Source: Gammaproteobacteria bacterium
GTDB lineage: Bacteria; Pseudomonadota; Gammaproteobacteria; Steroidobacterales; Steroidobacteraceae
Direction: 5' to 3'
Length of the DNA stretch: 64,000 nucleotides
Assembly: GCA_025359205.1 (NCBI GenBank)
Contig: JANYHD010000010.1
Location: 1 to 64,000 of the forward strand
Under the pieces are notes generated by a model. The model was not told where the DNA came from. It saw only the letters and a program-made list of their open reading frames with translations, and made no database searches. Positions 516-9,666 of the stretch are shown piece by piece. Position numbers and translations under genes: made by a program. Positions within the stretch are counted from its first letter, which is position 1. Every line of letters begins with the position of its first letter.

Positions 516-1505
516 ATGAGCGTCAGCGCCAGCGATGCAAAAGAGACCAAACCGCCTCGCCTCCTGGACCAACTTCGGCACCAAATCCGGTTGCGTCACT
601 ACAGCTACCGGACGGAGCAGGCCTATATCGGGTGGACGAAGCGCTTTATTCGTTTTCACAACCTGAAACATCCGGCCGAGATGGGTGGTCCGGAGGTGGA
701 GTCCTACCTGTCGTACCTGGCGTCCGATCGAAATGTTGCCGCGGCAACACAGAGCCAGGCCTTGTCGGCCGTGATGTTTCTGTACAAAACGGTGCTGAAG
801 ACGGATTTGCCGTGGCTGCAGAATGTGGTACGCGCGACGCGGCCGCGGCGCTTGCCTGTTGTGCTGACGCAGGCGGAAACGCGGGCAGTGCTGTCGCAGT
901 TGGAGGGCGTCCCGTGGTTGGTGGCGAGCCTGCTGTACGGGAGCGGGTTGCGGGTGCTGGAAGCGCTGCGGTTGCGCGTCAAGGACGTCGACCTGAAATA
1001 CCAGCAGCTGACGGTTCGGGATGGCAAGGGGGCGAAGGATCGGGTGACGGTGCTGCCGGCTGCCTTGGTGCAGCCGCTGACCACCCACCTGGCGCGGGTG
1101 CAGGAACGGCACGCGTTGGCGGTCGAGCGCGGATTCGGAGGCGTCGAACTGCCCTTCGCGCTGGTGAGGAAATATCCGCGGGCCGAACTCGATTGGGCGT
1201 GGCAATACCTGTTTCCATCAACCAACGCGTCGGTCGATCCGCGCACCGGGGCAAGGCGTCGGCATCATCTGCTGGAAGCGAATATTCAGCGGGCGGTGCG
1301 GGTGGCGGCGCATCGGGCGGGCGTCCTTAAGCCGGTGTCGCCGCACACCTTTCGGCACAGTTTTGCGACGCACCTGCTGGAAGCCGGCTACGACATCCGT
1401 ACCGTGCAGGAGCTGCTGGGTCACCAGGACGTATCCACCACGCAGATCTACACGCACGTGATGCAGAAGGGTGCGAACGCCGTAGTGAGTCCGCTCGATC
1501 GCTGA
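516..1505 (+). CDS. intI: Integron integrase IntI
   Basis: A 329-residue tyrosine recombinase that would insert and excise gene cassettes at attI. It has the N-terminal SAM-like domain (about 14-100) and a catalytic domain with arginine in [10 protein letters not shown], then HTFRH (His277, Arg280), GHQ (His303) and the nucleophile Tyr312 in QIYTHV. These numbers coincide with those of the class 1 integrase. The segment around [17 protein letters not shown] and RRRHH is the extra helix unique to integron integrases, which separates it from XerC/XerD. The frame is intact and the catalytic residues are present, so it is probably active. AGAGGG lies about seven bases before the ATG. The gene is convergent with glmS, and attI lies on its 5' side. 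Confidence 0.95.
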
Positions 1506-6801: not shown

Positions 6802-7662
6802 CTAGACTGCCGCCGCGCCGCCGACGATCTCCGCCAGCTCCTTGGTGATCGCCGCCTGCCGCGCCTTGTTGTAGACCAGCTGCAGGTCGCCGATCAGATT
6901 GCCGGCGTTGTCCGACGCGCTCTTCATCGCGACCATGCGCGCCGCCATCTCGCAGGCCACGTTCTCGACCGAACCCTGGTAGACCTGCGACTCGATGTAG
7001 CGCATCAGCAATCCGTCGAGGATGCGCATCGCCTCGGGCTCGTAGATGTAGTCCCAGTGCGAGGGCAATTCCGTATCCTTGATCGAACCCGCGGGCAGCA
7101 ACTGCTGCACCAGCGGTCTTTGCGTCATCGTGTTGACGAACTGTGCGTTGACCATGAACAGCCGGTCGATCTTGCCCTCGCGGTACGCGTCGAGCATGAC
7201 CTTGACCGCGCCGATCAGATCCTTGACGTGCGGACGATCGCCCAGGCCCGTGACACTCCCCAAAATTGGCAGCCCCAACCGCCGGAAGAAGGCCAGGCCT
7301 TTGCTGCCGAGGATGCACAGGTTGACGCTCGCGCCCTTCTGTTGCCACTCGCGCATCAAATAGATGACGTTCTTGAACAGGTTAGTGTTCAGGCCACCGC
7401 ACAGGCCGCGGTCAGTGGAAATAATCACGATCCCGATCGACTTGGGTTCACGCTCCACCAGGAATGAATGCCGGTAATCCGGGTTCGCCTGCGTGAGGTT
7501 GCCGATTACGGAGCGCATCTTGGCGGCATACGGCCGCGCCAGCTTCATCCGATCCTGCGCCCGCCGCATCTTGCTCGCCGCGACCATTTCCATGGCCTTG
7601 GTGATCTTCTGCGTGCTCTTCACGCTCGCGATCTTGGTACGAATCTCTTTAGTACCAGGCAT
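6802..7662 (-). CDS. atpG: ATP synthase F1 subunit gamma
   Basis: The 286-residue rotor shaft of F1. The N-terminal coiled-coil helix ([23 protein letters not shown]) and the C-terminal helix ([21 protein letters not shown]) are typical, with [11 protein letters not shown] in the Rossmann-like middle. AGGG lies about seven bases before the ATG. It should follow atpA closely, but 465 bases of structured non-conserved DNA intervene here (see 7698-8069). Its translation may therefore not be coupled to atpA. Confidence 0.97.
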
Positions 7663-7699
7663 GGGCTAACCCTGTGTGCGCGTAAGCGCGCGCACGTCT

Positions 7700-7762
7700 A
7701 GCGCTGCTGGGTGAGCGCCGTCGCTCCACGATATTCGCTTTGGGCGCTCACCCAGCAGCGCT
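7700..7762. repeat. Hairpin 1 of the atpA-atpG element
   Basis: Arms 7700-7719 and 7743-7762 are a perfect 20-bp inverted repeat (inner edge GAGCGCC/GGCGCTC). The 23-base loop 7720-7742 is exactly complementary to the loop of hairpin 2. In the atp transcript this hairpin lies about 38 bases before the atpG start codon. Confidence 0.85.
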
Positions 7763-8004
7763 CCCCTGCGCGCACTCACGCGCACTGGAACGGTTGGGGC
7801 ACGCCCGCCACGAACGAGATCCGCGCGCGGGTCGCGCGCGCGAAGTGCACGCCGGCCCTCGGGGTCCCGAGGCACCACGGTGAGCGCGGCGCCACCACCC
7901 GCCTTGGCCCAAGCGTGTGCGAAGCCCGGCACGCGCGGAAGCGTGGCCGAGCCGGGCGAGCGCAGCCGCGTGTGCGCCCGCAGCGGGCGCGCGGCGGGCG
8001 CGAG

Positions 8005-8067
8005 AGCGCGCGGGCCCAATTTTCCAAAGCGAATATCGTGGAGCGACGAAAATTGGGCCTGCGCGCT
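8005..8067. repeat. Hairpin 2 of the atpA-atpG element
   Basis: Arms 8005-8024 and 8048-8067 pair over 20 positions (inner edge GGCCCAATTTTC/GAAAATTGGGCC) with one imperfect pair, 8012 with 8060. That pair would be G-U in plus-strand RNA and C-A in the atp transcript. The loop 8025-8047 is the exact reverse complement of 7720-7742. It lies about 60 bases after the atpA stop codon. Confidence 0.83.
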
Positions 8068-8127
8068 AGGCGCGCCCATGGCGCGCCCGCTTCCGCTCAC
8101 CCAGTTGCTCTCTTCCGTCTTCATGCT

Positions 8128-9666
<1,539 letters not shown>

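Follow-up and report, generated by a model that had tools for sequence, protein, structure and literature searches.

Extragenic palindromes with a constant, oriented loop and free but complementary arms, present as a pair between atpA and atpG in a gammaproteobacterial genome

The hairpin pair that separates atpA from atpG in the window (the whole 64,000-nt stretch of DNA that was analysed, from the genome designated G000) comes from a family of extragenic DNA palindromes that invert the plan of REPs: the loop is constant and oriented, and the arms are free in sequence but complementary to each other. The family carries this loop in copies that are conserved in position between species, where stems have changed and re-paired; symmetry decays outward from the loop, and one site has a coding end copied in inverted form and another has a flipped loop. 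Judged from the sequences, DNA-level fold-back copying of the arms around a loop recognised in trans would be the best explanation and, with some reservation, the probable one. The family is apparently undescribed, as no publication was recognised as describing it in a search of titles and abstract openings that took in neither subscription papers nor preprints. Printed loop strings gave one match in the literature, to a human cancer paper, which we took as chance.

The atpA–atpG gap in the window and in relatives

The features of the gap are listed in Table 1, where the longer pairing of each hairpin was read from folds with its loop held open. The original prediction had described a 465-nt gap, a 372-nt segment within it bounded by CTAGCGC and GCGCTAG, and two hairpins of 63 nt, and all of these coordinates were confirmed; the loop length of 23 bases was likewise correct, and nothing had been said of the loops being identical and the stems differing. 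A perfect 25-nt inverted repeat (7719–7743/8024–8048) spans both loops, which are therefore exact reverse complements of one another, and the stems of hairpins A and B are unrelated. The loop 24-mer matches the window twice, compared with a mean of 0.00 in 100 shuffles. A 152-codon open frame (7666–8124, minus strand) nearly fills the gap and crosses both hairpins; it is absent from the codon-usage gene calls and may be a product of chance in GC-rich DNA.

Table 1. Coordinates of the atpA–atpG region of the window
Feature	Position	Strand	Details
atpG, F1 gamma subunit	6802–7662	-	NCBIfam NF004144, TIGR01146
atpA–atpG intergenic gap	7663–8127	.	465 nt
Head-to-head pair of constant-loop hairpins	7698–8069	.	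372 nt, bounded by CTAGCGC (7698–7704) and GCGCTAG (8063–8069)
Hairpin A	7700–7762	+	63 nt; 20-bp perfect stem; weaker pairing out to about 7678–7784
Arms of hairpin A	7700–7719/7743–7762		20 nt each, 100% inverted repeat
Constant loop of hairpin A	7720–7742	+	23 nt, GTCGCTCCACGATATTCGCTTTG
Spacer between hairpins A and B	7763–8004	.	GC-rich
Hairpin B	8005–8067	-	63 nt; 20-nt stem, 95% complementary; weaker pairing out to about 7982–8091
Arms of hairpin B	8005–8024/8048–8067		20 nt each, 95% inverted repeat
Constant loop of hairpin B	8025–8047	-	23 nt, same loop in - orientation
atpA, F1 alpha subunit	8128–9666	-	NCBIfam TIGR00962

The segment had been read as extra DNA inside an essential operon, and both parts of this reading stand. 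The element lies within the atp operon, and in the nine other readable members of the genus (G003, G005–G011 and G014) the hairpin is absent and the junction measures 4–48 nt, against 465 nt in G000. Within a second family, f15, the hairpin is absent from G127 of one genus and from G137, G146 and G103 of another, with gaps of 5–41 nt, and is present in one genus, in G163 (gap 120 nt), G116 (131 nt), G221 (124 nt) and G254 (126 nt). G000 carries a pair of hairpins here; in G002 the region is interrupted by a contig end, with the hairpin on its atpA side, and the junction was unreadable in G001, G004, G012, G013, G173, G184 and G213. The hairpins of G116 and G163 have the same orientation as hairpin A and lie about as far from the atpG start (57 nt for hairpin A, 54 nt for G116 and 53 nt for G163). 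Two separate gains at this junction, or a transfer, seem more likely than many losses, a preference that has no tree behind it. G116 has a further copy between atpC and glmU, where G213 also has one, and at the same place in G163 and G221 (loci L295 and L297) there is a different long palindrome (GGGGACAGTTTACTCATTTC...).

Several copies of the hairpin lie at contig ends or beside N, so assembly errors at hairpins do occur. In G002, positions 1–186 of contig C4 (L191) are an inverted fragment near-identical to the window's atpG start plus a hairpin arm, which joins G002's own atpG inside the loop and is probably an assembly chimaera. That the family as such should be an assembly or library artefact, consisting of inverted chimaeras formed at hairpins, is extremely improbable. 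This reading could point to the same G002 contig by atpG, which starts with an inverted G000-like fragment ending in the loop, and to the N at G004 loops, but 21 copies lie in the single-contig genome G116, the atpA–atpG copy recurs in four genomes of one f15 genus, and loop copies are found in records of several accession prefixes.

A constant loop between arms that vary together

At up to three mismatches, the loop 24-mer has eight matches in G000 and its backward control has none, while a slightly degenerate 24-mer has 12, one of them (contig 7) without a stem. In G000 the loop copies have inverted repeats immediately on either side, different ones at different sites. A covariance model was built from 36 chosen copies, and with matches counted at E ≤ 0.01 it found 11 copies in G000, 6 in G001, 13 in G002, 9 in G004, 4 in G012 and 21 in G116, a single-contig genome from another family than the window genome. 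The original prediction that the element is one of a family in its genome is thus upheld; since the same sequence was not found at this site in all relatives, and other copies were found, the idea of a family survives. In the sample of the order, 12 of 396 genomes match the model, and in the sample of the class two of 369 match, these being G000 itself and, weakly, G690. The G690 locus (L254; E 4.6e-5) is a hairpin with a perfect stem of 16 bp and a 16-nt loop that ends in GGAGCGAC, which also ends the constant loop on its other strand, and is possibly distant kin of the family.

An exact scan of genome contigs with the degenerate 24-mer, from which the window's own records may be left out, returned 30 stretches, comprising 29 in MAGs labelled only as Gammaproteobacteria or Pseudomonadota bacterium and one in a Sumerlaeia MAG (L080), which may be a mis-binned contig and stays in the counts. 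Viral contigs gave no exact match to the degenerate 24-mer. Also kept in the counts is G184, a 3785-nt contig that may be mis-binned, with a flank 77% identical to a G004 locus. The loop itself has variants that lean towards being genome-specific, not cleanly so: CCCCGTAACTCG is found in all eight G004 copies and three of the four G012 copies, CCCCGATACACG in four of the six G001 copies, G000 and G002 have two main loop types each, and G116 has 14 types among its 21 copies. The conservation of the loop is partly ascertained, because the copies were found via the loop.

The stems were assessed on 92 distinct loop matches unselected for stem, that is, all fetched loci with up to four mismatches, none having been dropped for lack of a stem. 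Over the first 14 positions, 1134 of 1288 cells are Watson–Crick pairs, and 84 of the 92 matches have at least six of eight inner Watson–Crick pairs. The other eight (L051, L056, L162, L279 and four more) have no good stem, some being longer-loop forms; L162 and its twin L169 are still counted among the loop variants above. Of the 504 cells in the alignment of 36 copies, 97.4% pair, a figure that is inflated because the 36 were drawn from 48 copies with at least seven of eight inner pairs, and 1134 of 1288 is the fairer one. Four more hairpins failed that filter, L051, L052 and L056 were removed manually, and the 12 of the 48 that were not used are the short-stemmed L070 and 11 copies that nearly duplicate the G254 type.

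Changes on both sides of a pair occupy 203 cells of the alignment and touch all 14 stem pairs. The pairing percentage, the covariation score and the number of double-change cells were not reached in any of 500 shuffles, and in slid structures 38–52% of cells pair; the other two of five measures, namely how many pairs show a double change (299 of 500 shuffles as high) and how many pair types occur (201 of 500), were not above shuffles. When arms of different hairpins are combined, they do not pair, with a median score of 1.0 compared with 23.6.

The kinds of pair are also informative. G–U accounts for 3 of 491 paired cells in the 36-copy alignment, compared with 8 of 129 pairs (and no A–C) in a small control of the six tRNAs of the fetched loci (p = 0.0003). 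For wider counts a non-redundant set of 66 hairpins was reduced from 87 by dropping copies with N, cut ends, fewer than six of eight inner pairs and near-duplicates. With its two groups summed, inner positions 1–15 of this set hold 931 Watson–Crick pairs, 7 G–U and 15 A–C, so wobble is not favoured in the inner stem. Over the whole arms of the genus group, A–C outnumbers G–U by 109 to 39 on the loop plus strand, and from this excess, which is inflated by the shared descent of subfamilies, selection for wobble on the opposite strand is possible. Within subfamilies, members have internal-loop motifs in common. As a whole, a pairing pattern with so few G–U would be easier to reconcile with copying of the arms at the DNA level than with selection for an RNA helix.

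Genomic setting and comparison with known elements

Gene calls were our own, based on codon usage and taken from a better-trained second round. Of 38 hairpins in the genus (orthologs counted), three lie inside called genes, and the 37 with genes on both sides comprise 25 between co-directional genes, 12 between convergent genes and none between divergent genes. The loop lies at a median of 48 nt past the nearest gene 3′ end and is sense to it in 26 of the 34 hairpins with a 3′ end within 100 nt (p = 0.003, with orthologs counted separately and orthology uncorrected). The f15 loci hold 30 hairpins, a number that takes in an eight-copy array in G116 in full, with 17 co-directional, 11 convergent and two divergent settings; nine are sense, four are antisense and 17 are without a 3′ end within 100 nt. 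The array itself (L150, 7079–8261) consists of eight alternating hairpin copies with a unit of about 344 nt, and is flanked by convergent FAD- and FMN-dependent dehydrogenase-like genes. The neighbours of the G000 copies include a FabI-like gene (below NCBIfam cut-offs), a SurA-like isomerase gene, lexA, the EF-Tu and S10 genes, clpB, the S12 gene and an M16 peptidase gene adjoining glutamate synthase.

The copies between convergent genes (12 of 37 in the genus and 11 of 30 in f15) would fit ordinary intrinsic transcription terminators, but a T5 run accompanies only one of 66 hairpins and several copies sit between co-directional genes of known operons (atpA–atpG, tuf–rpsJ). A conserved 23-nt loop is not known to be a trait of terminators, and we regard this explanation as very unlikely.

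The main rival to DNA-level copying is a structured RNA, in which the hairpin would be transcribed with its neighbour and the loop bound by a protein or small RNA for processing or protection of the mRNA 3′ end, the stems covarying for RNA folding. We consider it possible, though on balance unlikely. The placement and sense of the genus loops just past 3′ ends, their absence between divergent genes, the strong covariation and the internal-loop motifs of subfamilies would all fit such a role, as would the A–C excess of the genus arms, which amounts to G–U on the other strand. That G–U-richer strand, however, is mostly antisense to the adjacent gene, and G–U is scarce relative to the small tRNA control and does not exceed A–C in the inner stem. 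Both loop orientations also occur within the same atp operon, and the orientation is weaker in f15. Rfam 15 at gathering score gave no match in the window, and from eight loci three tRNAs and nothing else; a permissive search of 7650–8140 (E up to 5) gave 14 matches, all below gathering, the best being mir-3622 at 38.7 bits against 78. The original suggestion of a captured RNA element is weakened by the virtual absence of G–U pairs and by the lack of any Rfam match that attains gathering, and a role in RNA stays the foremost competitor.

Among known palindromes, REPs are described in the parts of PMC3733652 available to us as having stems of 5–13 bp, loops of 2–20 bp and a GTAG/CGTC tag. The family resembles REPs and REPINs, as portrayed in the available portions of PMC3733652 and PMC8266576, in that its members are short palindromes outside genes, lie mostly downstream of genes, often form head-to-head pairs and occur patchily across species. 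It differs in that the 23-nt loop is conserved here, whereas the stems, which range from 7 to about 60 nt, vary, with 14 of 14 stem pairs changed on both sides in the 36 copies. REP tags, sought 10–50 nt from the loop rather than at the exact hairpin foot, are not enriched in the 66 hairpins: GTAG occurs 9 times, CTAC 9, CGTC 18 and GACG 25, against base-shuffled means of 12.3, 13.4, 25.4 and 23.5, respectively. Y1_Tnp (RAYT) was found in none of the 15 genus genomes, carriers included, and in four of the seven carriers outside the genus. Outside the tandem array of G116 there are 12 close head-to-head pairs, all plus then minus, a count that leaves out one minus-then-plus pair around N (G004 contig 29), likely an assembly scar.

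These pairs, arranged as in REPINs, and the presence or absence of the hairpin at atpA–atpG would be consistent with a non-autonomous REP- or REPIN-type mobile palindrome, moved as single-stranded DNA by a Y1 (RAYT-like) or other transposase. Two further observations bear on such mobility. The first is a dispersed MITE in G254 with the terminal repeat CTAGTGTGGCGTYYCGCAA, of which 13 copies were printed (e.g. L245, L098 and L076): two are empty (82 nt) and 11 are filled with a central constant-loop hairpin (150–174 nt), and beyond the boundary after GACCGCCC a second exact CCGCCC is found on the far side in five of the 11 filled copies. The second is that G213 is without one of the G116 hairpins, which is missing exactly between GTTGC repeats. 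The MITE is nevertheless a separate element that carries the hairpin, as empty copies exist and CTAGTGTGGCGTYYCGCAA, at up to three mismatches, has 47 matches in G254 and 0–2 per genome in the remaining 11, being rare in other carriers of the hairpin; within G254 the hairpin seems to have dispersed as a hitch-hiker in the MITE. The absence in G213 looks like a deletion, because G163 keeps an apparently decayed copy. With no Y1_Tnp match in the 15 genus genomes, the tags not enriched and the conservation falling on the loop, where REPs conserve stems, we find a mobile palindrome doubtful. In the filled copies L227, L248 and L252 of G254 the loop is 12 nt longer through one similar insert, and the second copy in L092 has another loop insert.

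A mobile element had originally been proposed, and one with a repeated body was not supported. The spacer has no convincing second copy in G000 (the best places are of 32–37 nt at 81–84%, E 0.014, with 40 of 159 candidate places scored), and only the loop and some adjoining stem bases recur. Nor do the CTAG ends behave as terminal repeats, with CTAG in 11 of 66 hairpins and a shuffled mean of 12.6; on both grounds the window pair does not look like a MITE with common terminal repeats and body. Integron attC sites are folded palindromes of variable sequence with RYYYAAC/GTTRRRY boxes on their arms. The hairpins are similar in being folded palindromes of variable sequence, and an integron integrase gene lies in the window (516–1505, plus strand), adjoining glmS (TIGR02249, 466 bits against a cut-off of 265). 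None of the 66 hairpins has these boxes on two arms, and attC sites were rejected.

Arms changing in concert at matching sites

Symmetry was followed outward from the loop in 20-nt steps from 0–20 to 100–120 nt, with the 99th percentile of crossed arms as the threshold, and it was above chance in 58, 24, 15, 6, 5 and 2 of 81 hairpins, respectively. Many hairpin sites match between species by their flanks, among the matches listed. In 13 sets of matching sites, 364 inner-stem pair comparisons comprise 204 unchanged, 39 with an unpaired member and 121 changed on both sides and still paired, the last being arms that change in concert between matching sites, as in template switching. One of these sets is atpA–atpG, where independent gains are possible, and the f15 set was aligned in opposite orientation to its flanks. 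Not included in the sets are G184, the G116/G213/G221 pairs, G012 at the site of the FabI-like gene, G002 at atpA, and G004 copies that contain N or have truncated ends. One site, at clpB (its product identified as ClpB), has the loop of G012 inverted relative to that of G000, G002 and G004.

The most direct view of an arm being copied comes from a CBS-domain gene, found in 13 of the 15 genus genomes and read at 12 sites. Its coding end is conserved in the 12 species read: the C-terminus is YIHH in three (G000, G001 and G002), YIHHG in two (G004 and G012) and YIHx or YIRS in the remaining seven. Only in G002 does the hairpin's far arm repeat this coding end in inverted form (19 of 20 nt); of the two, the coding end is the native one and the arm its copy. 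At this site a stem of 7 bp flanks the loop in G001, and no loop was seen in the 157 nt past the stop in the other ten species. This is the sole site with an unambiguous copied coding end. Pairing into coding sequence under lenient scoring was mostly at baseline and was discarded save for the separately checked CBS site, and in arm-by-arm comparison of orthologs, gapped alignments of the GC-rich arms gave ∼60–90% throughout, with little discrimination of the native arm.

Quasipalindrome correction by template switching, in the sections of PMC6649704 available to us, likewise involves arms that evolve in concert by copying and long, mainly Watson–Crick stems. Those sections describe no common loop for template-switch inverted repeats, whereas here a single 23-nt loop is found at unrelated loci and across families. 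In the explanation we favour, the replicating strand would fold back at the loop and copy one flank into the other, as in quasipalindrome correction, and such copying would create, extend and repair the arms; this part is supported by the comparisons of arms. A putative trans factor, protein or RNA, would recognise the loop, which would account for the conservation of the loop; we infer it from that conservation, from the orientation of the loop and from the genome-leaning variants. From time to time the loop, or a short hairpin, would insert elsewhere and so found a new site.

A bolder version has the loop as the site of a putative enzyme that nicks or holds the strand and thereby drives self-primed copying of the flank, by analogy with hairpin transfer in rolling-hairpin replication. 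We think this improbable, though if true it would mean a palindrome-writing system around a fixed sequence, with flipping of the loop and with loop and enzyme co-evolving by species. Whichever way the arms are made, the transcript of the atp operon should form two very stable hairpins, and these predicted hairpins may influence the processing or stability of the atp mRNA.

For the study of bacterial palindromic repeats, the classification by tag and stem found in the available parts of the REP papers (PMC3733652 and PMC8266576) could miss families such as this, with a conserved loop and free stems. The family offers natural sites at which to watch the concerted evolution of palindrome arms at matching positions in bacteria. 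Recognition of the loop in trans, if it occurs, would imply that these bacteria possess a factor handling DNA or RNA that is still to be found, and the recurrence of the hairpin at atpA–atpG in two families raises the question of its role inside an essential operon.
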